A stretch of DNA of 64,000 nucleotides from Notamacropus eugenii (lineage: Eukaryota > Chordata > Mammalia > Diprotodontia > Macropodidae), in the NCBI RefSeq assembly GCF_028372415.1, contig NC_092877.1:215043116-215107115 (forward strand). Direction: 5' to 3'. The translations under genes were made by a program, and so were the position numbers. Below are positions 1 to 35,168 of this stretch, in pieces. Under the pieces are notes generated by a model. That model had not been told where the DNA came from. It made no database searches and saw only the letters and a list, made by a program, of their open reading frames with translations. How positions within the stretch are numbered: the stretch's first letter is position 1; each line of letters opens with the position of its first letter.

Positions 1-517
1 AGGTGAGTCTTGGTTTAATCCTTTTTCCTTTGACCTCTGGAATATTATAATCCAAGCCCCCGGATCCCTTAGTGTACAAGATTCTAGATATTGTGCTATC
101 CTGTGTTTCCACAGTACTTGAATTGTTTAGATCAAGATGCTTGCAATAGTTTCTCCTTGGCCTGGTAGCTCTGGAATTTGCCTACAGTATTCCTAGAAGT
201 TTTCCTTTTGTCATCTCTTTCAGGAGATGATCAGTGGATTCATTCAATATCCATTTTATCATTTGGTTGTAGAATGTCAGGGCACTTTTCCTTGTTAATT
301 TCTTGAAAGATGATGTCCAGGCTCTTTTTTTGATGATGGCTTTCAGGTAGTCCAATAATGTTTAAGTTCTCTCCCCTGGATCTGTTTTCCAGGTTAGTTC
401 TTTTTCCAATGGGATATTTCACATTGCCTGCTATTTTTTTCATTCCTTTGGTTTTGTTTTATAATTTCTTGATTTTTCATAAAGTCATTAGCTTTCATCT
501 GCTCCATTCTAATCTGG
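1..517 (-). mobile_element. L1/HAL1 ORF1 fragment, cut by window edge
   Basis: Read on the minus strand this is the C-terminal two-thirds of an L1-type ORF1. It includes RGENLNIIGLPESHHQKKS, which matches residues 194-212 of the intact ORF1 copies elsewhere in the window, and the region before it resembles the end of their coiled coil. The copy is clearly older and no open frame spans it. Its 3' part lies left of the window, so whether it had an ORF2 cannot be told. Confidence 0.8.
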
Positions 518-4230: not shown

Positions 4231-6116
4231 CCAGATCTAATCATTTATGACTCCATTATAACTACCTGGCAGGTTGTTTATCATTACTTTTGAGCTACTG
4301 CTCTTTCCCCTCTAAGAAATGGCACTACTATTCCTCTCTCAATCCTGCCCTTCAACACTAGAGCCAATTTTCTATCTCCATTTATTTTTCAGATGTCCTG
4401 CTTTTCTGCAAATGACCTAACAGTCAGACTCCCAAACTTTGGTTGTTGCCTGTCTGAACCTGAAATTACTTTCTGACATCCTCTGGAACTTGAGGAATTC
4501 TCAAAGCAGAGATCTCTAATTCCTGAGGTTTCCTCACCAATAGCTTTTAGCTGCTGACATGAGGTTTCTGCCTAGGCCTTGGCCTCTATTCTCTTGTTAC
4601 TGGCCTTGATTGTTTCAGATTCCTTTCAAGATAAAATGGATAAGCTCTCTCTATGGCATTTTACTGATTTCATAACCTTATCAAAAAAGGAAATGAATTT
4701 AATTTAGTATGATATTCTTAGAGAAACACCATGGTTCCTGATGACCTTTATTTCATCTTACAATTATTCACAAAACATTCATTCGATAATCTATTTTAGA
4801 ATCTTCAGGACTACATTGGAGCTCCCCACTCTAAAGTTCCTGGAATCTTCCCTCTTTAGAAAATTTAAAAAAAAAATCTTCATCTGCAGTCTTATCAAAC
4901 CTCTCTAATTCTTCAAGAGTTTCATAGATTCCTGAGAACATTAACACTTCAACCATCATAGCTGTTAAAGCTCTTTCAATACCATGGAATTTAATCAATT
5001 CAGTTCAGAACATCTGAACTCACTTAAAGAAATCAGTGATCTTTATTTTCTTCCGTCTTCTCACTTATCTTGGACTTCTATTTCCTCTTAACTTTATTTC
5101 ACTCTTAATAGAGAAGACAAAAATGAAATGAAAGTTGAGTTTTTCTTTTTGTCTGACTCCTGTTGACACTGCATCATCTGCATCAAGTAATGGCTTCTCC
5201 ATTTTCTGATTCTTCTTTACTTAATATACTTTACTTAATATACATTAAGAAGTTTCTTTTTTTATGTCCCTTGCCATTTTTCCCAGCCAAATCTCATACT
5301 GGGATTCAATGTTACTTATATTGTTCATAGAAGTCTAAATTAAAAAAAAAAAATCATTGATCAAAATACCCTTCCAACTTTTACATAGATCACTGTAAAA
5401 GTGAAGTTTATTCAAGAGTTCTTTGTGGAGCTACATTTATCTTTTTAAGTGACATTTTCTTTGGAATTGTTCAGCATTGTATTTTCAGAAATTATTTTTT
5501 CAGACTCTCTCATATTGCTTCAGTTATCTTTGCTTTATATGCTCAAGCTACAGTAGTACACATGCAGAATTTTTCACAAGGTCCTCATTACTTCCGTTTC
5601 ATCAAATATTTCCTCTTTCATGTTACACATTTAATGGCATTTACTTTTCTTTCTGTTGAAAAAAATAAAAAAAAAACTATGCTAATAAGTTAGAAGTCAT
5701 CTTGATATCTGCAAGAGCTTAAAAACCTGTTTCATTTGAAAATGCTTCCTCAATTTGTATGGTGACTGCTTTAGGTCTTGATGTTCGTATGCGTGTGCGT
5801 GTATCTGTCTGTCTGTATAAAGAATTGTTTTTCTTCCATTTTTAATTTTTTCATTCTGAATTTAATAAACACCCCCAAAATACATTTCAATGTACAAAGT
5901 AGAACATTATAGAAAGAGCATTATATGTGAAAATGTGAATCTCTCTTATACAGTTTGCTTTTTAGAAGTACATAATAAATTCAATGCTACTTTAAAACTG
6001 AATTTCTTAAATGTTTCCTTCTGAAACTTCTTTCAATGTAATATGCTCATTTCAAAAATGTTTCAATAACATTTTCTTTTTTTTATAACCCTATTAATAG
6101 TCCTCCTCTCAAGTCC
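4231..6116. other. No recognised feature
   Basis: AT-rich sequence with a few A-runs (4868, 5342, 5660). I see no coding frame or repeat I can name. Confidence 0.4.
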
Positions 6117-6649: not shown

Positions 6650-7620
6650 CTAGTGGTAGATCATAATTTGTTTAGCTATTTTAAAAATAATGCTCGCTCC
6701 TTGTTTCTAGCTCTTTGCTACAACAAAAATAGATGCCATTTTTGTACTTCTTTAAAAATCTCTTCAGTCAAGAAGAACAAGCAGTGGCTATAGAACTACA
6801 GTTGCTATAGAACTAATAGTGGCATTGTTGGTTCAAGGGGTAAGGAACCATTTTACTTTGAGGACATATTTTCAAACTGCTTTCTAGAATGAGTGGCTGA
6901 ACAAACTGATAGCTTCTAAAACAGTGCACAATTGTGTCTTTCTTCCCACAACCTTTCTGATAACTGAAATTTTCACTTTTTTTTAATATTGGTAATCATA
7001 TAGATATGAGGTAGAAATTCAGAGCTACTTTAAAATTTAATTTTCTAATTACTTCTTAGTGATTTGGAACACTGAGGAATAGTTATCATTATTATACATT
7101 TGAATTTTGTGTCTCAAATATGAGACATTTTTCATTAAAGCTTGCTGCAAAGGCTTTCCCTCCAAATTACTATTTACTTTCTAATTTTCATCATTAGTTT
7201 AGTGTGTGTAAAATCTTTTTAATTTCGTAGAATCACACTTGCCCATTTATCTTCTAGAATTTATTCTATTCCCTTGTTTATTCATGAGTTCTCTATAAAT
7301 TCTGAAAGGTTTATGCTTTCTTGTTCCTCTATCACATTTATAATGTGACTTTTTATCTCTGTCATATATCCATTTGGAACTTGTGTCATATGGTGTAAGA
7401 ACTTGGTCTAAACCTTATTTCTGCCAAATTGCTTTGCAGTTTGCAGATGTTTGAATAATGAGTCCTTACCCCAGAAGTTAAGAGTATTTGGATTTGTCTG
7501 TTTAAATATATTGTGTACCTAATCTGTTTCATTGATTAACCTCTCTAAGGACTAGATTTGATGATTAGAACAGTGTATTAAATTTTGAGATCTGGTTCTG
7601 CCAGTTCTTTTCAATTTCTT
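6650..7620 (-). mobile_element. L1 ORF2 C-terminal part, degenerate
   Basis: The minus strand reads, in pieces, like the end of L1 ORF2. At about 6925-6975 it gives KGCGKKDTIVHC followed by YQFVQPL, matching the Cys-rich C-terminal motif and the following LVQPLWKTVW-type block of L1. Upstream at about 7380 comes VLTPYDTSSKWIYD, like the conserved FLTPYTKINSKWIKDL stretch. This is the only L1 ORF2 sequence I found in the window. It is old and heavily broken, so it cannot supply a working reverse transcriptase. Confidence 0.75.
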
Positions 7621-14929: not shown

Positions 14930-15080
14930 TGGAAATCTAAAGGTCAGTAAGTAGTCTGGAAGAATGAGCAAAAAAAAAGAATCCCACCATAAAAAGCTTT
15001 TATGATGACAGGGATACTCAAGTCACAAACCCAGATGAAGAGACTGACTCTAAAATATCTACAAGCAAAACTTCAGAGGA

Positions 15081-15110
15081 GGGCGGAGCCAAGATGGCGT
15101 AGTAGAAAGA
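15081..15110 (+). promoter_or_regulatory. YY1-type initiator motif of HAL1 copy A
   Basis: CCAAGATGGCG at 15089-15099 matches the YY1 site found at the very start of L1 5' UTRs, where it directs transcription to begin at the element's first base. It is preserved in copy B at 24393-24403. The GC-rich 5' UTR behind it is the presumed internal promoter. Confidence 0.55.
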
Positions 15111-15758
15111 CGCACATACACATAGCTCCGAACCCACAACCCATAGAACAACTACAAAGAAGTAACTCACGGCGAATTCTGCACCCAGAGGCCACAGAAC
15201 ATTGGAGCGAGGGAGATTTCTGTTCCGGAGAGACCTGCAAACCTCTCGTAAAAGGTCCTTCGTGCTGCGGACTGGGCGCCGGGACTGGGAGCTGAGTACA
15301 GCCCGGCCGCAGCACAGAGAGGAAAAGATCCGAGCGGGCTTCAGGGACGGGATCTCCAGCGGCCGCACAAGTACCTCCACCCACAGGTGACGGGGGTCTG
15401 TGAGAGAGTCCCTTTGGCGGGTCGAGGGGGGAGTGGGGTGCCCCCATGGCTTGGGCCCCCTCGGGAGACAGAAGCTGAGGGGCAGCGGCAGACCAGGGCT
15501 CCCCAAGCAGGCAGGAGCCTGGATCCATTGTTGAAGGTCTGTGCATAAACTCCCTGAGGGAACTGAGCCTGAGAGGCAGCCCTGCCCTCACCTGAGCATC
15601 TGAATTTAATCTCACACTGAATAGCAGCCCTGCCCCCGCCCAAAGCCCTGAGGCTGGAAGCAGTATTTGAATCTCAGACCCCAAACACTGGCTGGGAGGA
15701 TCAGGAGGTGAGGTGGGTGTGAGGAAAATATTCAGAGGTCAAGTCACTGGCTGGGAAA

Positions 15759-16847
15759 ATGCCCAGAAAAGGGAAAAGAAATAAGACTATAGAAGGTTAC
15801 TTTCTTGGTGAACAGGCATTTCCTCCCTTCCTTTCTGATGAGGAAGAACAATGCTTACCATCAGGCAAAGACACAGAAATCAAGGCTTCTGTGTCCCAGC
15901 CCACTCAATGGGCACAGGCCATGGAAGAGCTCAAAAAGAAATTTGAAAATCAAGTTAGAGAGGTGGAGGAAAAGCTGGGAAGAGAAATGAGAGACATGAA
16001 GTCAAAGCATGAACAGCAAATCAGCTCCCTGCTAAAGGAGACCCAAAAAAATGTTGAAGAAAATAACACCTTGAAAACTAGCCTAACTCAATTGGCAAAA
16101 GAGGTTCAAAAAGCCAATGAGGAGAAGAATGCTTTCAAAAGCAGAATTAGCCAAATGGAAAAGGAGATTCAAAAGCTCACTGAAGAAAATAGTTCTTTCA
16201 AAATTAGAATGGAACAGATGGAGGCTAATGACTTTATGAGAAACCAAGAAATCACAAAACAAAACCAAAAGAATGAAAAAATGGAAGATAATGTGAAATA
16301 TCTCATTGGAAAAACAACTGACCTGGAAAATAGAGCCAGGAGAGACAATTTAAAAATTATGGGCCTACCTGAAAGCCATGATCAGAAAAAGAGCCTAGAC
16401 ATCATCTTTCATGAAATTATCAAGGAAAACTGCCCGGAGATTCTAGAACCAGAGGGCAAAATAAATATTCAAGGAATCCACAGAACACCGCCTGAAAGAG
16501 ATCCAAAAAGAGAAACTCCTAGGAACATTGTGGCCAAATTCCAGAACTCCCAGGTGAAAGAGAAAATATTGCAAGCAGCTAGAAAGAAACAATTCAAGTA
16601 TTGTGGAAATACAATCAGGATAACACAAGATCTAGCAGCTTCTACATTAAGGGATCGAAGGGCATGGAATAGGATATTCCAGAAGTCAAAGGAACTAGGA
16701 CTAAAACCAAGAATCACCTACCCAGCAAAACTGAGTATAATACTTCAGGGGAAAAATTGGTCTTTCAATGAAATAGAGGATTTTCAAGCATTCTTGATGA
16801 AAAGACCAGAGCTGAAAAGAAAATTTGACTTCCAAACACAAGAATGA
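15759..16847 (+). CDS. HAL1/L1 ORF1 protein, intact, copy A
   Basis: The 362-residue frame is uninterrupted. It reads as an L1 ORF1p, an RNA-binding trimeric chaperone that packages the element's RNA in cytoplasmic particles. By family, residues 1-50 are a basic/acidic N-terminus and about 52-190 a long heptad coiled coil (MEELKKKFENQ through GKTTDLENRA). An RRM-like domain starts at 194 with RRDNLKIMGLPE. The C-terminal domain, about 242-345, carries RTPPERDP, TPRNIVAKF, YCGNTIRIT and the conserved YPAKLS at 321-326. Length is close to human ORF1p (338). The start chosen is the first Met after the 5' UTR and is identical in copy B. No ORF2 follows. Both copies being open suggests recent activity or selection for the protein; whether it is expressed cannot be seen. 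Confidence 0.85.
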   Translation: MPRKGKRNKTIEGYFLGEQAFPPFLSDEEEQCLPSGKDTEIKASVSQPTQWAQAMEELKKKFENQVREVEEKLGREMRDMKSKHEQQISSLLKETQKNVEENNTLKTSLTQLAKEVQKANEEKNAFKSRISQMEKEIQKLTEENSSFKIRMEQMEANDFMRNQEITKQNQKNEKMEDNVKYLIGKTTDLENRARRDNLKIMGLPESHDQKKSLDIIFHEIIKENCPEILEPEGKINIQGIHRTPPERDPKRETPRNIVAKFQNSQVKEKILQAARKKQFKYCGNTIRITQDLAASTLRDRRAWNRIFQKSKELGLKPRITYPAKLSIILQGKNWSFNEIEDFQAFLMKRPELKRKFDFQTQE

Positions 16848-16981
16848 AGAGAACCATGAAAAGGTGAACAGCAAAGAGAAGTCATAAGGGACTTACTAAA
16901 GTTGAACTGTTTACATTCCTACATGGAAAGACAATATTTGTAACTCTTGAAACATTTCAGTATCTGGGTACTGGGTGGGAT

Positions 16982-17020
16982 TACACACACACACATGCAC
17001 ACACGCACACACACATAGAG
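16982..17020 (+). repeat. CA microsatellite built into the HAL1 3' region (copy A)
   Basis: CA repeats with ATG and CG interruptions lie about 135 bases after ORF1. The same tract is at 26279-26315 in copy B, and a TG-phase tract holds the same place in the antisense copy. Confidence 0.85.
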
Positions 17021-19084
17021 ACAGAGTGCACAGAGTGAATTGAAGAGGATGGGATCATATCTTAAAAAAAAATGAAATCAAGCAGTGAGAGAGAAAGATA
17101 TTGGGAGGAGAAAGGGAGAATTGAATGGGGCAAATTATCTCTCATAAAAGAGGCAAGCAAAAGACTCATTAGTGGAGGGATAAAGAGGGGAGGTGAGAGA
17201 AAAACATGAAGTCTATTCTCATCACATTCCACTAAAGGAAAGAATAAAATGCCTACTCATCTTGGTATGAAAACCTATCTTACAATACAGGAAAGTGGAG
17301 GATAAGGGGATAAGCAGAGTGGGGGGGGATGATAGAAGGGAGGGCATGGGGAGGAGAGTGCAATTTGAGGTCAACACTCATGGGGAGGGATAGGATCAAA
17401 AGAGAATAGAAGTAATGGGGGACAGGATAGGATGGAGGGAAATATAGTTAGTCCTATACAACACAACTATTATGGAAGTCATTTGCAAAACTACACAGAT
17501 TTGGCCTATATTGAATTGCTTGCCTTCCAAAGGGAAGGGGTGGAGAGGGAGGGAGCTAAAGAAGTTGGAACTCAAAGTGTTAGGATCAACTGTAATGTTC
17601 TTACCACTAGGAAATAAGAAATACAGGTAAAGGGGTATAGAAAGCTATCTGGCCCTACAGGACAAAAGAGAAGACAGAGACAAGGGCAGATAGGGATGAT
17701 AGAAGAGAGAGCAGATTGGTCATAGGGGCAATTAGAATGCTTGGCGTTTGGGGGGGGAGGGGAGAAAAGGGGAAAAATTTGTAACCCAAAATTTTGTGAA
17801 AATGAATGTTAAAAGCTAAATAAAAAGAAAAAAAAAAAAACTTCAGAGGAAAACAAAGCTTGGGCAAATCCAACTAGAATATCTGCAAGATATGCAGCAT
17901 TAAAACTGTTATTCTCCCCTCCCTCCCAAGAGAAATGAGAGTGCTAAAAATAAAATTAGAAAAGAAATGAGGGTTATCAAAGAATAGGAAAAGGAATTAA
18001 CAGAGGTACCTTGCCTAAGCAACAAACTCCTTGAAAATTAGAATAGACCAAGTAGAAGCAAATTACTCCATAAGACAAAAAAAAAAAATACTTAAAGCCA
18101 AAAGACTGGAAAAAATAGAAGAAAATCTAATTAATATCATAGCAAAATCAACTGATCTGGAAAACAGATTGTGAAGAAAAAAATAAGAATTACTAAACTT
18201 CCTCAATGATATGGCCAAATAATAATAATGATAATAAAAGGCTAAACACCATATTTCATGACATCTATTAGAACAAGATGACAAAATGGAAATAGAAAGA
18301 ATTCATCAGTTACCTTCTGAGAGAAACCTCAAAATGAAAATTCTCATGAACATTATAACCATAATCTAAAGCTTCCAGATCAAACTAAAAATACCATCAG
18401 TAATCAAAAAGAAATATTTTGAATATCAAGAAGCCAAGTAGATCAAGACTATACATGATTTTTAGCAGCTACCACTATAAAGGAGTAGAAATCTTATGAA
18501 AAGATATTCCAGAAGGCAAAAAGGATAAAAGTTTACAGTCAAGAATAAAGTACTCAGAAAAACTGAGTATAAGCATTCAAAGGAAAAAACAGATCTTTAG
18601 TAGAGGACTTCCAAGTCTTCCTGATGAAAAGACCAGAGCTGTGCAGAAACTTTGAAGTTCAAACACAGGAATTAAGAGAAACAAAACATAAATACCAATG
18701 AACAATTAGAAAGAACTACACAAGGATAAATTGCTTACGAATTTGTTAGTACACAACTGTAACATAAGAAATTATGAAAAGGGGTTGGTTTCAGAGAAAC
18801 CTGAGAAAAATTGTATGAACTGATTTAGAGTGAAGTGAATAGAAAAAGAGAATAATTTATAAAATGACTTAACATTTAAAAGATAAAGACCTTTGAAATA
18901 ATTAAGAACTCTAATCAGTATAATGACCAACCATGATTCAAGAGGATTAATAATGAAATGCTACCCACTATATAAGACATTACATATGCAACTACAATGC
19001 ATTGTCTTTTGAACTACTTATGTTCATAATAGAGTTTTTATTTTTCTTCTTCTCAATTAGGGGTGGATGGGTACCAGAGATGGG

Positions 19085-19215
19085 AAGAAGACAAAATGTA
19101 TATACGTGTGTGTGTGTATGTATGTATATATATAAAATGTGTGTGTGCATGTTAGTGTGTGTGTGTGTGTGTGTGTGTAGTATGTATATGTATATATATG
19201 CATATATATGTAATT
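19085..19215. repeat. TG/TA microsatellite
   Basis: Alternating TG and TA runs near the end of the old HAL1-like copy. They give spurious Cys/Val- and His/Thr-rich frames. Confidence 0.95.
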
Positions 19216-19299
19216 TTAACAAAATGCATTTGATTAAGTAGAGCAAAAAAGACTTATAGGCTCTCTTTCAATGAGAGTACATACCAAAATTACACAAAA

Positions 19300-19650
19300 T
19301 TCTGTAAAATATATGGCAGAAACAACGTGGTCCAATGTTCCTTTAAATGTAAGACAGATACATTCTCCCTAGAAGTGTTGGTCACATGTATAGAAGAAAT
19401 CCAATACAACATCCAAGTTAAGGTCAATTGTAAGGTTCTTCACAAGCCCTTTTTGCAGATGACATTGTATTGGTTGCATTAAGCTCCAGAATACTGCAGT
19501 CTCCTAAATAAGGTCTTAAAATATTCTAAAGATTTTGACCTAAGTATCAACACAAGAAAATCAAAGTGAGTGAAAACTATTATCTGTATCAATGTAAGTA
19601 ATTCAATGGACAACCATAAAAAACCTTGTCCATTCATGAGCATGTGTGTT
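19300..19650 (+). mobile_element. Non-LTR reverse-transcriptase fragment
   Basis: Bases 19452-19499 read FADDIVLVALSSRILQ, containing the FADD active-site motif of a reverse transcriptase. A little further on, in another frame, 19541-19576 reads DFDLSINTRKSK, matching the block that follows the active site in non-LTR elements ('..GL.IN..K.K'). The clade is not certain; RTE-like is my best guess. It is short and broken, and too different from L1 to be the missing ORF2 of the HAL1 elements. Confidence 0.55.
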
Positions 19651-20566
19651 ATAACAGCAGTGTGGGTTGTGATGGGCCTAATGTACTAGGTCTACACTCA
19701 AAAGTTCAAATAACATTAGAAAATAAAATCTTTTATATTTTATTTGTGAATGCAACAGAGAGGATTTAAACTTAGCTAATAGTTCTACCTTAATACCATA
19801 GGCATACGTGAGACCCTGAGTTCTCAAGGTATTACATATATACATATATGTATACATGGGTGTACATAGATACATGCTGGGGATACTAAGTACAAATAGG
19901 AAATTAGCAGGCCCAGAATTTAACTGCAATAGAGCAAACTGTATTGTCTTTGGACAACTGTAAAGCTATTTTAAGGACCCTAAGCTTTTTCTTGAAACAA
20001 AAGTGGGTTAGATCACATTTAGAGAATTTTGTAGCATTTTCAGTGCTCTCAAGCTGTTTACTGCCAAACCACTCAGTTTTTTTAATATTCTCATTCTGCT
20101 GCTGATACACGATAGCTGTGAAATCTAAAACCAAACAGAACCAATCGGTAATAGGCATCTACTTAGTGATTAGAAGCCATGTCATATTACTGATGACTTA
20201 CACATCATACTAAGGACACTGTACGTACAGAAAAGGAGGTGGACAATCATGTAACAACAGCAAGGGATAATATGATATAAAACTGAAGCAAAGCACTAGT
20301 AATAACAAAAGAGCCTCTAGAAAGTTGAGTAGATCCTAAAGGGAAATTTATAGAAAGAAAGAATGAACAAGGATCATACAGACGGACTAAGATGCCAAAG
20401 GATTGTTCTGTAAACCAGTGGAAAAAATATTCAGCATAAGAGCACAGATATCACATCGGAGAGGCAATTATTTGAAATTAGGTAATTAATTCAGTAGAAT
20501 GAGGAAGTTAACATAATATGCAAGAGCTATAGTGTTTGAGGGTAAAGTTTTCACTGTGAAATTGAA
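19651..20566. other. No clear feature
   Basis: AT-rich sequence that may continue the broken reverse-transcriptase element. No motif I can name. Confidence 0.35.
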
Positions 20567-21383
20567 CAGTGAAAAAAATATTTTCAGTTTTTAACATTTA
20601 CTTCCACAAAATTTTTAATTTCAAATTTTCTCCCCATCTCCCCCCAACCCCCACCCCAGGACATCATGATTACCCTTTCCTCCCATCTACTCTTCCTTCT
20701 ATCATTCACACACCCACCTCTCTTATCCCCTTCCCTTTTATTTTCCTGTAGGGCAAGACAGATGTCTATACCCCATTGCCTATATATCTTATTTCCTAGT
20801 AGCGTGCAAAAAGAATTTTTAACATTCATTTTTAAAGCTTTGAGTTCCATATTCTTTCCCTTCCACCCCTTCCCATCCATCCTCATTGAGAAGGCAAGCA
20901 ATTCAATATAGGTTATACATGTGCAGTCATGCAAAATACTTCCATAAGTCATGTTGTGAAAGACTATATTTCCCTCTATCCTGTCCCACCCTCCATTTAT
21001 TCTGTTCTCTTCTTTGACCTGTCCCTCTGCAAAAGTGTTTGCTTCTGATTACTCTTTCCCCCAATCTGCCATTCCTTTTATTATCCCCCCGCCCCATTTT
21101 CTTGAGGGGTAAGACAAATTTCCATACCCAATTGAGAGTGTATGTTACTCCTTCCTGAAGCCAAATCCAAAGAAAGGAAGGCTAATTTATTCCCTCTCAT
21201 TTACTCTTCTTCCCTTCCATTTTAAGAGCTCTTTCTTGCCTCCTTTATGTGAGATGATTTATGACATTCTACCTCTCCCTTTCTCTTTCTCCTAGTACAT
21301 TCCTCTCAACACTTCTTTTTAAGATATCATCCCTTCATATTTAGCTTACCCTGTGCCCTCTGCCTGTCTGTCTCTCTATATAC

Positions 21384-21392
21384 ATATACATG

Positions 21393-21426
<34 letters not shown>
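21384..21426. repeat. CA microsatellite in copy C 3' region
   Basis: A near-perfect CA run on plus, which is TG in the element's own sense. Confidence 0.95.
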
Positions 21427-21428
<2 letters not shown>

Positions 21429-21551
21429 TTCCCTCCAACTATCCTAAAACTGAGAAATGTCTCATGAGTTACAAATATCATCTTTTCATGTAGGATGTAA
21501 CTAGTTCAACTTTAATAAGTCCCTTATGGCTTCTCTTTCCTATTTACCTTT

Positions 21552-22670
21552 TCATGTTACTCTTGATTCTTGTATTAGAAAGTCAGTTTTTCTATTCAGC
21601 TTTGATCTTTTCAACAAGAATGCTTGGAAGTCCTCTATTTCACTGAAGTTCCATTTTTTTCCCCTTGAAGTATTATACTCAGTTTTGCTGGGTAGGTGAT
21701 TCCTGGTTTTAATCCTATCTCCTTTGACCTCTGGAATATCATATTCCAAGCCCCCCAATTCCTTAGAGTAGAAGCTGCTAAATCTTGTGTTATCCTGATT
21801 GTGTCTCCACAATACTTGAATTGTTTCTTTCTGGATGCTTATAATAGTTTCTCCTTGAGCTGGGAGTTCTGGAATTTGGCTACAACATTCTTAGGAGTTT
21901 TCTTTTTGGGATCACTTTCAGGAGGTGATCAGAGGACTCTTTTCGTTTCAATTTACCCTCTGGTACTAGAATATCAGGGCAGTTTTCCTTAATAATTTCT
22001 TGAAAGATGATGTCTAGGCTCTTTTTGATCGTGGCATTCATGTAGTTGAATAATTTTTGCATTCTCTCTTGTGAATCTATTTCTAATGGTCAGTTCTTTT
22101 TTCAATGAGATACTTCAACACTATCTTCTATGTTTTCATTCTTTTGGTTTTGTTTTATAGTTTCTTAATTTTTCATAAAGTCATTAGTTTCTATTTGTTC
22201 CAATCTAATTTTTACAGAATTATTTTCTTCAGTGAGCTTCTGGACCTCTTTTTTCCATATGGCCCATTCTGCTCTTTAAGGCATTCTCCTCATTGGCTTT
22301 TTGGACCTCTTTTGCTATTTGGGTTAGTCTAATTTTAAGGTGCTATTTTCTATAGCATTTTTGGGGGTTTCCTTTAGCAAATTGTTGACTCCTTTTTCAT
22401 GATTTTCTTGCATCACTCTCATTTCTCTTCCCAATTTTTTCCTACTTCTCTTACTTGATTTTCAAAATCCTTTTTGAGCTCTTCCATGGCCTGAGACCAG
22501 TTCATATTTTTCTTGGAAGTTTTGGGACAGGAACTTTGGCTTTGTTGTCTTCTTCTGGTTGTATGTTTTGATCTTCCTCGTCAGCAACGATGTAAGAAAA
22601 TATCTCTTCACCAAGAAAGTAAGAATGTATAGTCTGTTTCTTTTTCTGCCTTTGCTCAGTTTCCCAGCCA
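21552..22670 (-). pseudogene. HAL1 ORF1 remnant in copy C
   Basis: The minus strand gives KKKQTIHSYFLGEEIFSYIV near 22610, like KRNKTIEGYFLGEQAFPPFL at residues 6-25 of intact ORF1. Near 21620 it gives WNFSEIEDFQAFLLKRSKL, like residues 334-352. The frame is disrupted between these. It spans the full ORF1 length and has no downstream ORF2. Confidence 0.8.
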
Positions 22671-23116
22671 ATTAGTTGGCTTTTTGAGCTCTTCATTATG
22701 TGGAGGGCTCCTGAGGCAGCCTCCACTTCAGAATTAGCTATCACTGCTCTGGGGCTGGGGTTCAACCAATCTCCCCTCTGTCAGGTGAAGAGAATGACCT
22801 TTGAAGCTGTCTTTAGAGTTTGTGGGTTGAAAAATCTAAAAACTGCAGTAGCTGCCAGTGATTCAGTCCCAAGGCCTGCTCCAGCTCCATCCACAAAGCC
22901 CATGCTGAACTGTGTTCCACTTCCAACCTGATGCAATTGACCCATCAACCTTCCACATTATCTTGGCTGGAAATTTGCTTCAATATGTCATTTTGTGGCT
23001 TCCGCTGCTCCAGAATTTGCTTAGAATCATTTTTGGAGGTTTTTCGAGGGGTTTGGGGGGAGAGCTCCAGCAAGTTCCTGCTTTTACCCCATCATCTTGG
23101 CTCTGCCCAGTGAAAA

Positions 23117-24382
23117 TTTTTTTTGACTTTTTGATAGGCAAACACTTTGATGATTTCCCAAACAGAAAACCTAACACTTCAAGCAAAAAATTTAACAACA
23201 AATAGAACATAATAAAATCCTATATCAAAGACTTTGTTTGTGATTGACACTTGTAGAAGTTTACAATTATTACAGGGTTGTATATACAAAGGGGAATCAC
23301 TATAGGAATCATTTTAGGTAATAGACATTTGATTCCATTAACCATCCAATTCAATGAAAAGGATTTTTTTTTCTTTTAAAGGGAATTGCTGAATTTCCAA
23401 CTCATGGTGAACAGCTGGAAATTGCTATCTGATCGCAAGTTATGCAAACCCAGATCTTTTAAAATTACTATGCCATTGATACTTGGGGTCATTCACATTT
23501 AGGGATAGGATGAAAATGAGAAGAATCAAAGGAATATAGAGGAGTTAAAGATGATAATAGAAGTGGAAGTCAAGAATCACAGTAAGGAGCAGAACACAAC
23601 AAAACATGCTAGGATCTAAAGGCCAGGTCCAAAAAAGGACCCATAAATTCTGTTACATGACTGCACAATGGGGAAGCAGTGAATGAGTGCAGGCTTCTCA
23701 TTTAACTCACTGTCAAGAGCTTTACAAAGTTTAAGATGCAATATAAACATCAAGTATCCTTAGTATTCATGTTTTTAACTTCTTATTCCTTTGTTTTCTT
23801 TTCCACATATCAAGGCTGTGATAAAAGGAAAAACCCAAGCCCTTTAATAGATACTTTGAATTGCTCCTCTTGCTGGATTTTATCTTCCATTTTCTCCACT
23901 ATATTTCCTTGGGGAGGGCAATAGGCACATTAAGGTACTATTGGAAATGAGTATTTATCTTACAAAATTTTTCCTAAATTTTGATTCCCCATACTAGTGA
24001 TTGCAATAAGGGAGATTTTAACATAGTACAATCCAAATACTTTGGTTTTAGACTACACTTCATTACCCTGAAAGTTGAAGATAAATAAAGCAACCTTCCC
24101 TAAGATTAAACCATCCAGCACAAAGCTGGAATTACCCTCATGCTTATTCCTTATCTCAAAATGCCTATCTATATTACATTCTCTTTTCTTTTTGTTTCTT
24201 AGGAATAGGTAACTCTCCTGTCCAAAAATGAATCTTTCACTAAGCATCCAATCCTAATGTTTCATTTTGTCCGAATGATTGCTCATCTCACTCTCTTATA
24301 TCTTTATTTTTTCCTTTTCCACTTCTCTCTGCCTACTAAGACATTTAGGTATCTGTAATTTAAAAAACAAAAAACAAATACA
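23117..24382. other. No recognised feature
   Basis: AT-rich spacer between two HAL1 copies. I see no gene and no repeat I can name. Confidence 0.4.
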
Positions 24383-24410
24383 GGGGGCAGAGCCAAGATG
24401 GCGGAGTAGA
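24383..24410 (+). promoter_or_regulatory. YY1-type initiator motif of HAL1 copy B
   Basis: CCAAGATGGCG at 24393-24403, in the same place as in copy A. Confidence 0.55.
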
Positions 24411-25055
24411 AAGATGCAAATACACATAGCTCCGAACCCACAACCCATACAACATCTATATAAAGTAACTCACGGCGAATTCTGGAGCAGTGAGGCCACA
24501 GAACAGTGGAGCGAAGGAGATTTCTGTTCCAGAGGGACCTGCAAACCTCTCGCAAAAGGTCCGTCATGCTGCAGTCGCGGAGCCCAGCCCAGACCTGCCG
24601 TCGCCACGGCACGGAGAGGAACAGATCCGAGCAGGCTTCAGGGACGGGATCTCCAGCGGCCGCACAAGTCCCTTCACCCACAGGTGACGGGGGTCGGTGA
24701 GAGAGTATCTTTGGTGGGTTGAGAGGGGAGTGGGGTGTCCCCATAACTCAGGCCCCCTTGGGAGGCAGAAGCTGAGAGGCAGCGGCAGACCAGGGTTCCC
24801 CAAGGGGGCAGGAGCCTGGATCCATTGTTGAAGGTCTGTACATAAACCCTCCGAGGGAACTGAGCCTGAGAGGCGGCCCTGCCCTGACCTGACCACCTGA
24901 ACTTAATCTCACACTGAATAGCAGCCCTGCCCCCGCCAAAAGCCCTAAGGCTGGAAGCAGCATTTGAATCTCAGACCCCAAACGCTGGCTGCGAGGACCA
25001 AGAGGCGAGGTGGGTGTGAGGAGAATATTCAGAGGTCAAGTCACTGGCTGGGAAA

Positions 25056-26144
25056 ATGCCCAGAAAAGGGAAAAGAAATAAGACTATAGAAGGTTACTTT
25101 CTTGGTGAACAGGCATTTCCTCCCTTCCTTTCTGATGAGGAAGAACAATGCTTACCATCAGGCAAAGACACAGAAGTCAAGGCTTCTATATCCCAGCCCA
25201 CTCAATGGGCACAGGCCATGGAAGAGCTCAAAAAGAAATTTGAAAATCAAGTTAGAGAGGTGGAGGAAAAGCTGGGAAGAGAAATGAGAGACATGAAGTC
25301 AAAGCATGAACAGCAAATCAGCTCCCTGCTAAAGGAGACCCAAAAAAATATTGAAGAAAATAACACCTTGAAAAATAGGCTAACTCAATTGGCAAAAGAG
25401 GTTCAAGAAGCCAATGAGGAGAAGAATGCTTTCAAAAACAGAATTAGCCAGATGGAAAAGGAAATTCAAAAGCTCACTGAAGAAAATAGTTCTTTCAAAA
25501 TTAGAATGGCACAGATGGAGGCTAAGGACTTTATGAGAAACCAAGAAATCACAAAACAAAACCAAAAGAATGGAAAAATGGAAGATAATGTGAAATATCT
25601 CATTGGAAAAACAACTGACCTGGAAAATAGATCCAGGAGAGACAATTTAAAAATTATGGGCCTACCTGAAAGCCATGATCAAAAAAAGAGCCTAGACATC
25701 ATCTTCCATGAAATTATCAAGGAAAACTGCCCGGAGATTCTAGAACCAGAGGGCAAAATAAATATTCAAGGAATGCACAGAACACCGCCTGAAAGAGATC
25801 CAAAAAGAGAAACTCCTAGGAACATTGTGGCCAAATTCCAGAGTTCCCAGGTCAAGGAGAAAATATTGCAAGCAGCTAGAAAGAAACAATTCAAGTATTG
25901 TGGAAATACAATCAGGATAACACAAGATCTAGCAGCCTCTACATTAAGGGATCGAAGGGCATGGAATAGGATATTCCAGAAGTCAAAGGAACTAGGACTA
26001 AAACCAGGAATCACCTACCCAGCAAAACTGAGTATAATACTTCAGGGGAAAAATTGGTCTTTCAATGAAATAGAGGATTTTCAAGCATTCTTGATGAAAA
26101 GACCAGAGCTGAAAAGAAAATTTGACTTTCAAACACAAGAATGA
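25056..26144 (+). CDS. HAL1/L1 ORF1 protein, intact, copy B
   Basis: This 362-residue ORF1p-like protein has the same domains as copy A: coiled coil about 52-190, RRM-like from 194 (RRDNLKIMGLPE) and a C-terminal domain with YPAKLS at 321-326. By eye it differs from copy A at 14 residues, for example I41V, S109R, K118E, E152A, E173G, A193S and R318G, with no insertion or deletion. Several differences lie in the coiled coil, while the RNA-binding core is nearly unchanged. Cytoplasmic RNA packaging is the family role. Expression cannot be judged from sequence. Confidence 0.85.
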   Translation: MPRKGKRNKTIEGYFLGEQAFPPFLSDEEEQCLPSGKDTEVKASISQPTQWAQAMEELKKKFENQVREVEEKLGREMRDMKSKHEQQISSLLKETQKNIEENNTLKNRLTQLAKEVQEANEEKNAFKNRISQMEKEIQKLTEENSSFKIRMAQMEAKDFMRNQEITKQNQKNGKMEDNVKYLIGKTTDLENRSRRDNLKIMGLPESHDQKKSLDIIFHEIIKENCPEILEPEGKINIQGMHRTPPERDPKRETPRNIVAKFQSSQVKEKILQAARKKQFKYCGNTIRITQDLAASTLRDRRAWNRIFQKSKELGLKPGITYPAKLSIILQGKNWSFNEIEDFQAFLMKRPELKRKFDFQTQE

Positions 26145-26278
26145 AGAGAAGAATGAAAAGGTGAACAGCAAAGAGAAGTCATAAGGGACTTACTAAAGTT
26201 GAACTGTTTACATTCCTACATGGAAAGACAATATTTGTAACTCTTGAAACTTTTCAGTATCTGGGTATTGGGTGGGAT

Positions 26279-26315
26279 TACACACACACACATGCACACA
26301 CGCACACACACACAG
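26279..26315 (+). repeat. CA microsatellite in HAL1 copy B
   Basis: Same position after ORF1 as in copy A. Confidence 0.85.
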
Positions 26316-27170
26316 AGACAGAGTGCACAGAGTGAATTGAAGAGGATGGGATCATATCTTAAAAAAAAATGAAATCAAGCAGTGAGAGAGAAATATATTG
26401 GGAGGAGAAAGGGAGAAATTGAATGGGGCAAATTATCTCTCATAAAAGAGGCAAGCAAAAGACTCATTAGTGGAGGGATAAAGAGGGGAGGTGAGAGAAA
26501 AACATGAAGTCTACTCTCATCACATTCCACTAAAGGAAAGAATAAAATGCACACTCATTTTGGTATGCAAACCTATCTTACAATACAGGAAAGTGGGGGA
26601 TAAGGGGATAAGCAGGGTGGGGGAGATGATAGAAGGGAGGGCATGGGGAGGAGGGTGCAATTTGAGGTCAACACTCATGGGGAGGGATAGGATCAAAAGA
26701 GAATAGAAGTAATGGGGGACAGGATAGGATGGAGGGAAATATAGCTAGTCTTATACAACACAACTATTATGGAAGTCATTTGCAAAACTACACAGATTTG
26801 GCCTATACTGAATTGCTTGCCTTCCAAAGGGAAGGGGTGGAGAGGGAGGGAGGTAAAGAAGTTGCAACTCCAAGTGTTAGGATCAACTGTCAAGTAATGT
26901 TCTTGCCACTAGGAAACAAGAAATATAGGTAAAGGGGTATAGAAAGGTATCTGGCCCTACAGGACAAAAGAGAAGATGGAGACAAGGGCAGAGAGGGATG
27001 ATAGAAGAGAGAGCAGATTGGTCATAGGGACAATTAGAATGCTTGGTGTTTGGGGGGGGGGGAGGGGATAAAAGGGGAGAAAATTTGTAACCCAAAATTT
27101 TGTGAAAATGAATGTTAAAAGTTAAATAAATAAATTTAATATAAAAGAAATAAATAAAAATATAGAAAAA

Positions 27171-34154: not shown

Positions 34155-35168
34155 TTATATAATTGTTACATTAGATGAAGTCTTTGCCATTTCTTCAGGG
34201 GAGTGACTTTTTATAACTTCTTTGATGAACTGTTCAAGTGCAGTGAAATAACCCTGGCACTGCCATGTGTCATTATGAGTTCCATCAGGAAAAATTGCTA
34301 ATCTCTTAGTCCGAGACGGGGAAAGTTCATAAAGCTGCTTCATCATTACTGGTGGAATTAACTGGTCTGAGAGCCCAGAGATGAAAAGAGAAGGCATTCT
34401 GCACTGAGAGATTTTTCTGTAGGACAGGAATTTATTTTTGTAGCACCACAAAGGAAGATATCGCATTGGAAAGAAAGAAAATAAAGTAGTGGCCATATGT
34501 GGTATGCTTAGAAATGTGTTCTCTACCATGATGGCTGAAATCCTATGAGAATTTTCAGAAGCTAAGTGAATGGCCACTGCTCCCCCCAAGGAACGGCCAA
34601 AAAGAAAAATTTTTGTTTTATCAAGGTCAGGTCTGGTCATCACGTAGTCCAGTACAGCTTCAGAATCTAAGTAGAGTCCTTCTTCATTTGCTTCGCCTTC
34701 ACTTTTTCCATAGCCTCTATAATCAACAAGTAAAAGGTTAACTTTCAGGTTAACCAGCATAAGCAAAGCATTTGGTAACCTGTGACCAATATTGCCTGCA
34801 TTTCCATGAAAATAAATGATAGTTGGGGAATATGTTGAATCATCTCCAGTGTATCTCAGCAAAATAAGGTTGAGAAGCACTCCATCTTTGGTTCTGATGA
34901 AAATGTTTTCATGTGGAATGCCAGTGGGCATAGGGACATAAAGGCGGGATGATGATGGCTGTTCTGGAAAATAAAGCAATACATCCTGGAATTTATATAG
35001 AATACCTGCTATTGATACAAATATTAACACAAGTAAGGTGATGCCACCATACAGATGGAAAGTCACTATTAAAGGTAAAAGAGAAATACGACAGAGGGCC
35101 CAAGACCAGGAAGCTAAGGCTAACAGCCATCTTTCAACAAAGGTCCACAACATCCATGACTTTTCCAT
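34155..35168 (-). CDS. ABHD13: ABHD13, alpha/beta-hydrolase domain protein 13
   Basis: This 337-residue protein, coded in one exon, reads essentially as mammalian ABHD13, a single-pass type II membrane serine hydrolase of the alpha/beta-hydrolase fold. By my memory it is nearly identical to human and the same length. One hydrophobic signal-anchor segment lies at about 37-57. The oxyanion region is HGNAGNIG at 121-128. The nucleophile elbow GRSLG at 191-195 has Ser193, and the rest of the triad fits Asp268 (GLSDQL) and His298 (GTHND). NDT at 299-301 is a possible N-glycosylation site. The frame is open 27 codons further upstream, but those codons lie beyond a splice acceptor at 35204-35205. 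The Met at 35168 has A at -3 and G at +4, so I chose it. The family suggests depalmitoylase or lipase-like activity; the substrate cannot be read from sequence. Confidence 0.97.

Follow-up and report, generated by a model that had tools for sequence, protein, structure and literature searches.

Copies of a numerous and young family of ORF1-only LINE-1 derivatives in the wallaby Notamacropus eugenii

Two ORF1-only elements in the window

A stretch of 64,000 nucleotides from the wallaby Notamacropus eugenii (assembly GCF_028372415.1, contig NC_092877.1, positions 215,043,116 to 215,107,115, forward strand), called hereafter the window, contains two elements of the HAL1 type, designated copies A and B (Table 1). 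HAL1 elements are derivatives of LINE-1 (long interspersed element 1, L1) that carry only its open reading frame (ORF) 1; they have arisen several times (PMC5753468, cited from excerpts, as are all papers below) and depend on full-length LINEs (PMC5322556).

ORF1 is open in both copies, and both products matched the Pfam families Transposase_22 (PF02994) and Tnp_22_dsRBD (PF17490). That of copy B also matched solved structures of the LINE-1 ORF1 protein (ORF1p), 2yko (E 1.7e-29) and 2ldy, and that of copy A presumably contains a coiled coil. Copy A starts with GGGCGGAGCCAAGATGGC, which we take to be a YY1-like site, and has an A-rich tail at the opposite end. For copy B, no convincing target duplication was found (7 bp only, A-rich). 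A tblastn search with L1 ORF2 (E <= 1e-5) detected no ORF2 protein near A or B, its sole match in the window being at 6894–7052. A preliminary description of this DNA had reported two ORF1-only copies with an open 362-codon frame, a YY1-type start, an A-rich tail, a target repeat in at least one of them, and neither endonuclease nor reverse transcriptase, all of which was borne out.

The same description had called the copies near-identical. Their identity is 94.6% over 2755 bp, and their divergence is uneven (2.2% in ORF1, 12% in the 5' untranslated region (UTR), 2.5–6% in the remainder), so that they represent two subfamilies, not near-twins. The 12% difference between the 5' UTRs (15081–15758 versus 24385–25055), against 2–3% in ORF1 and spacer, may reflect faster turnover of the 5' UTR or exchange between subfamilies.

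We consider it quite probable that A and B are HAL1-type L1 derivatives, in which an old deletion would have removed nearly all of ORF2 while the 5' UTR, ORF1, spacer and 3' end were kept, and which need their own ORF1p. The features of HAL1 were found together: an L1 ORF1p with both domains, no ORF2, a unit bounded by an A-tail and duplications, and descent by loss of ORF2. The ORF2 of autonomous L1s is absent from both copies.

Table 1. HAL1 copies, their parts and related older sequences in the window
Feature	Positions	Strand	Basis
Target-site duplication, 5' of copy A	15067..15080	.	exact 14-bp repeat, second instance 17837–17850
HAL1 copy A, youngest subfamily	15081..17836	+	18/20 fetched relatives run from ORF1 to 3' end at 98.9–99.7% identity
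5' UTR of copy A, YY1-like start	15081..15758	+	sequence; a 35-mer inside has 4328 genome sites at <=1 mismatch
ORF1 of copy A, 362 codons: RRM-like and C-terminal domains	15759..16847	+	open frame, Pfam
Region of copy A from the L1 ORF1–ORF2 spacer	16848..17445, end approximate	+	three blastn pieces, 63–66% to L1 spacer; alignments
3' UTR of copy A, including a G-rich tract	17446..17816	+	shared by copies of types A, B and O
A-rich tail of copy A	17817..17836	+	sequence
Target-site duplication, 3' of copy A	17837..17850	.	exact match to 15067–15080
HAL1 copy B, older B subfamily	24385..27146	+	94.9–96.4% to 5/5 fetched B-type relatives, end to end
ORF1 of copy B, 362 codons	25056..26144	+	open frame, Pfam, PDB matches
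Spacer-derived region of copy B	26145..26743, end approximate	+	differs by 2.5% from the corresponding part of copy A
3' UTR and A-rich tail of copy B	26744..27146	+	sequence, comparison with copy A
Old O-type HAL1 copy, ORF1 broken, without ORF2	20583..22678	-	73.6% to A, spanning ORF1, spacer and 3' end
Old ORF1 fragment, groups with O-type; HAL1 or L1 not distinguishable	1..513	-	82% to A, 70% to L1; tree

Family size, age and descent from L1

HAL1 forms a large family here, the youngest subfamily of which is very recent. Abundance in the genome was estimated by counting 35-mer patterns at <=1 mismatch, with reversed patterns as controls; these counts replaced a DNA query across the junction of ORF1 and 3' part (16600–17200), which gave no matches, probably because its words were too common. 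The pattern from the end of ORF1 was found at 18,218 sites, that of the deletion joint at 21,115 and that of the 5' UTR at 4,328, and none of the three reversed patterns matched anywhere. For the first two counts, chance is thereby excluded. Among 94 listed exact ORF1-end sites (C1, first 38.5 Mb), 52 had the exact joint 35-mer 577–608 bp downstream, and none had it solely at another distance within 6 kb.

With the first 920 bases of A as query, the 40 matches scored, A included, were the best 40 of 3515 candidates and had 98–100% identity. Twenty A-type relatives were fetched. In 18 of these the element extends from ORF1 to its 3' end and lacks ORF2 (98.9–99.7% identity); the other two (L016, L027) break off within ORF1 and were left out of the element counts. 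Inside these loci (L009–L028) tblastn detected no ORF2, its matches lying only in the flanks. ORF1 was open in 15 of the 20, and in a protein search whose best 113 places, A included, were chosen for similarity, 111 were stop-free, 112 spanned all 362 residues and all had 99–100% identity. The five fetched B-type relatives all align end to end with B, from which the absence of ORF2 was judged, and one has an open frame. The preliminary description had named an ORF2 directly behind ORF1 in the closest relatives as a sign of independent deletions; no such arrangement was seen in the fetched relatives of either copy.

Mean pairwise distances, taken over ORF1 and the 3' part, were 0.007 for 19 A-type copies, 0.039 for six B-type copies and 0.189 for seven older, O-type copies. 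With 2.2e-9 changes per site per year, a rate assumed for this host, they correspond to ages of about 1.6, 9 and 43 million years. The recent activity proposed earlier for this lineage is supported.

The 993 bases that follow ORF1 in copy A had been described as 3' sequence and not a deleted ORF2. This is correct for their later part, whereas most of the first ~600 bases are L1 spacer: bases 1–113, 219–496 and 457–597 of the tail matched the inter-ORF spacer of L1 at 63–66% (blastn; E 1e-6, 1e-13 and 4e-7). Since the tail is homologous to this spacer, an ancestor lost most of ORF2. The spacer of autonomous L1 measures ~520 bases (L060, 2122–2645), much more than in human L1, and HAL1 retains most of it. 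The match seems to stop about 10 codons into ORF2, in a last part that is purine-rich and weakly scored (copy A 18, shuffle maximum 17, n=300); in three of six old copies this part beat all 100 shuffles, and in the other three it did not. The breakpoint is likely near ORF2 codon 10, and the spacer-derived region of copy A probably ends there. When the HAL1 tail was compared with L1 by tblastx, the matches were short and scattered (best summed E 4e-7) and could not be interpreted.

The 3' end of HAL1 resembles the 3' UTR of the present L1 only marginally (70% over ~50 bases next to the A-tail; E 0.003 and 0.06). Its TTGCTTGC...GGAACTCA block also occurs in other repeats (L059 and L015 rows), and the last ~390 bases were not traced to one source. 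Two purine-rich blocks in the HAL1 tail (17264–17406 and 17634–17774) are weakly alike (62% over 145 bases), perhaps by an old duplication or only by shared composition.

Selection on ORF1, insertion marks and alternative explanations

A further search used the window copy at 20583–22678 as query. The best 40 places, itself included, were scored, and 13 of the 39 others align with 78% or more of its length as a single piece. In seven O-type copies, the window copy among them, no ORF2 match was found by tblastn, and in six of the seven the joint is crossed with few gaps. The split between old and young HAL1 therefore followed the deletion. Each of the seven has 2–7 stops and 1–8 partly gapped codons, and copy A, the tip of a longer line, has no stops. 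In an ORF1 tree, 15 HAL1-labelled rows were separated from four L1 rows at 100/100, with A placed within B and O as their sister group; of three unassigned old fragments, one fell among O and two near the root. Between the ORF1s of HAL1 and autonomous L1, the ratio of replacement to synonymous change per site (dN/dS) was 0.14–0.20, at a nearly saturated dS of 1.2–1.7.

Selection was evaluated along the path from the O-type majority sequence to the A majority, and the divergence of the O copies from their own majority served as decay baseline. Along this path the spacer changed by 0.33 per site, the 3' end by 0.32 and ORF1 by 0.15, less than half the rate of these non-coding flanks, with 0.126, 0.078 and 0.201 at codon positions 1, 2 and 3, and the dS of 0.32–0.33 equals the non-coding divergence (0.32–0.33). 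With all seven O copies (338/362 codons), dN/dS was 0.30 (0.21–0.46), versus 0.73 (0.58–0.93) for dead-copy decay (Fisher p 0.0009). With the six joint-bearing copies the values were 0.27 (0.18–0.42) and 0.79 (0.61–1.04; Fisher p 0.00009), and with four of these 0.29 and 0.66 (p 0.01). Neutral change in ORF1, which the preliminary description had named as an argument against it, was thus not what was found. Singleton changes in A-type copies (nine synonymous, 18 replacement, three stops) were too few for a selection test. These comparisons show purifying selection on the ORF1 amino acids while the element was ORF1-only, provided that the shared joint arose once.

Insertion marks were inspected in 19 copies (17 fetched ones, A and B; L021 was left out). 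Exact flanking duplications of 11–17 bp lie directly behind the A-tail in 18 of them, B being the exception, and when flanks were swapped between copies as a control, at least 11 bp matched in one of 342 pairs. The duplications mostly start with A, and 13 of the 19 copies have 1–3 extra G at the 5' end. An A-tail with a target duplication fits L1-type target-primed reverse transcription, and duplications of 11–17 bp beside A-tails are usual for L1-driven insertion. In L013, upstream of 601, 13 extra bases separate the target duplication from the usual 5' end, possibly owing to an upstream transcription start.

A possible helper for HAL1 is present in the same genome. In a reverse-transcriptase search, about 40 (counted by eye) of the best 150 places scored lie in open frames of exactly 1298 codons. 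Three autonomous L1s selected for open frames (L059–L061) all have the 1298-codon ORF2 frame, and two have an open ORF1 (393 residues). A 35-mer at the L1 ORF2 start was found at 2,891 genome sites (<=1 mismatch). Such L1s are candidate donors of the copying enzyme. Nesting is reciprocal: an L1 with open ORFs lies inside an older HAL1 (L060, 1–198 and 6939–7604), and a HAL1 inside an L1 spacer (L026). Elsewhere in the window, an intact 337-codon frame (34155–35168, minus strand) resembles, we presume, ABHD13.

Could A and B simply be ordinary L1s truncated by independent ORF2 deletions? The homology of the sequence behind ORF1 to the L1 spacer implies that an ancestral deletion did occur, but the same joint at ~21,000 sites (<=1 mismatch), the constant spacing from ORF1 in 52 of the 94 listed sites, its presence in six old copies and the distance of the HAL1 ORF1 from that of L1 make this extremely improbable, and two truncated L1s were rejected on copy number and shared joint. 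Hardly more credible is mobilisation by a non-L1 element such as RTE. Recent activity of RTE elements in marsupials is on record (PMC5322556), and HAL1 differs at its 3' end from the present L1, but the A-tails and adjoining duplications are usual for L1-driven insertion.

An improbable, if somewhat less remote, explanation is that ORF1 stays open only because translation, by bringing ribosomes onto the RNA, favours its capture by nascent ORF2 protein (ORF2p), the sequence of the ORF1 product being unimportant. L1 ORF2p is known to prefer the RNA that encodes it, but selection on amino acids speaks against it: replacements are held back and not just stops (dN/dS 0.27–0.30), with the least change at codon position 2 (0.078 versus 0.20 at position 3). 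Unlikely, too, although the most serious of the alternatives, is that the conservation of ORF1 dates from time spent within autonomous L1s, or reflects exchange of ORF1, HAL1 being of multiple origin or existing beside an L1 with the same ORF1. Several origins of HAL1 in mammals are stated (PMC5753468), three L1s were compared here, and 26 of the 39 old-copy rows align only in part. In six old copies, however, the alignment with A continues across the joint with few gaps, none of the six has an ORF2 match, and dN/dS is still 0.27 when the copy lacking a visible joint is omitted.

Several observations weigh against the reading of A and B as L1 derivatives that need their own ORF1p. Of the 26 rows that match the old window copy only in part, 18 end at query positions 1212–1302 next to a simple repeat (two continue as a second piece that reaches the 3' end) and eight at 1429–1811, and they may include L1s with an O-like ORF1 and an ORF2. 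One O copy (O3, L026) stops before the joint, so its ORF1-only state is not proven. The O type is a sister group of A and B and not their direct ancestor, and the tree root is weak (65/10). A stop codon interrupts ORF1 in three of 19 A-type copies, for 42 of the 94 ORF1-end sites no exact 35-mer of the joint lies within 6 kb, the majority-codon method leaves out ambiguous codons, and the L1 comparison rests on three full L1s. Nick sites are A-rich, yet tt|AA occurs in only five of 19; the A-tail blurs the duplication start, and no control stands behind this figure. Finally, selection demonstrates the importance of the protein but not its action in cis.

As to the 18 rows that end near query 1250, they may represent either HAL1s whose spacer has changed or L1s carrying an O-like ORF1.

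Proposed cycle and comparison with known systems

For the HAL1 elements taken as ORF1-dependent L1 derivatives, the following cycle is proposed. RNA polymerase II would read the element from its YY1-type start; the RNA would be translated into ORF1p, trimers of which, judging by homology, would coat that same RNA. ORF2p from a presumed donor, an autonomous L1 of the same genome, would then nick the DNA at a presumed motif and, starting at the A-tail, copy the HAL1 RNA in trans. Because the ORF1 amino acids are under purifying selection, the element would need its own ORF1p in order to spread, and this protein would probably act on the RNA of the element itself. The earlier claim that this protein is required in cis is thus supported as regards selection on ORF1, while the action in cis is deduced, as it had been in guinea pig (PMC3627910).

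More tentatively, and with some doubt on our part, a single HAL1 lineage may have parasitised L1 over tens of millions of years, its separate ORF1p packaging HAL1 RNA selectively, so that two parallel ribonucleoprotein systems would share one reverse transcriptase. HAL1 may today be the more successful partner, with 4,328 sites of its 5' end versus 2,891 of the L1 ORF2 start, a rough comparison of different patterns. From this it appears that a parasite with ORF1 alone can rival its helper in a mammalian genome, or even outnumber it. With ORF1 under selection and ORF2p borrowed, the system would be a natural experiment separating the jobs of the two L1 proteins, and its many young intact copies make it directly testable whether ORF1p acts chiefly on the RNA from which it is translated.

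The literature search returned no description of young marsupial HAL1 among the matches listed. Repbase has HAL1 entries with marsupial suffixes, and the family in the window may already be catalogued. Bao and Jurka (2010) reportedly is the primary paper on the HAL1 families of placentals.

Other users of L1 proteins differ in what they encode. Short interspersed elements (SINEs) and SVA, which L1 mobilises in trans, likewise rely on its ORF2p but, unlike HAL1, encode no protein. L1TD1 likewise is an ORF1-derived coding sequence without ORF2, yet it is a domesticated gene of placentals and absent from marsupials (PMC4161310). In cell culture, polymerase II transcripts need ORF1p besides ORF2p, whereas polymerase III SINEs do not (PMC2666806), a finding in keeping with an RNA that has an ORF1 of its own. 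The autonomous L1s of the same genome (L059–L061) share with HAL1 the first ~23 bases (seen for L059), the ORF1 domains and the spacer; they differ by their ORF2, by an ORF1 of 393 amino acids at dS 1.2–1.7, by another 5' UTR and by a 3' UTR that is at most marginally similar.

The closest parallels are the placental HAL1 families, such as HAL1-1/-3_Cpo of guinea pig and HAL1-1C_Cja of marmoset, likewise ORF1-only, inserted in the L1 manner and with young copies in both hosts. Families of <1% divergence are listed for these two (PMC3183009), so that HAL1 is not only old and decayed in placentals, as the preliminary description had it; in the same table the opossum and wallaby rows name none. 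The five HAL1 families named there have 106, 54, 50, 37 and 32 copies (PMC3183009), versus ~18,000–21,000 sites here, although counting methods differ. The wallaby elements also differ from these families in retaining most of the long L1 inter-ORF spacer. In guinea pig, HAL1 likewise long kept its own ORF1 open, with coding capacity maintained for ~29–44 million years, which was taken to imply ORF1p in cis and ORF2p in trans (PMC3627910). The family described here is an apparently new, unusually numerous and young HAL1 family, and gives independent support to that idea.

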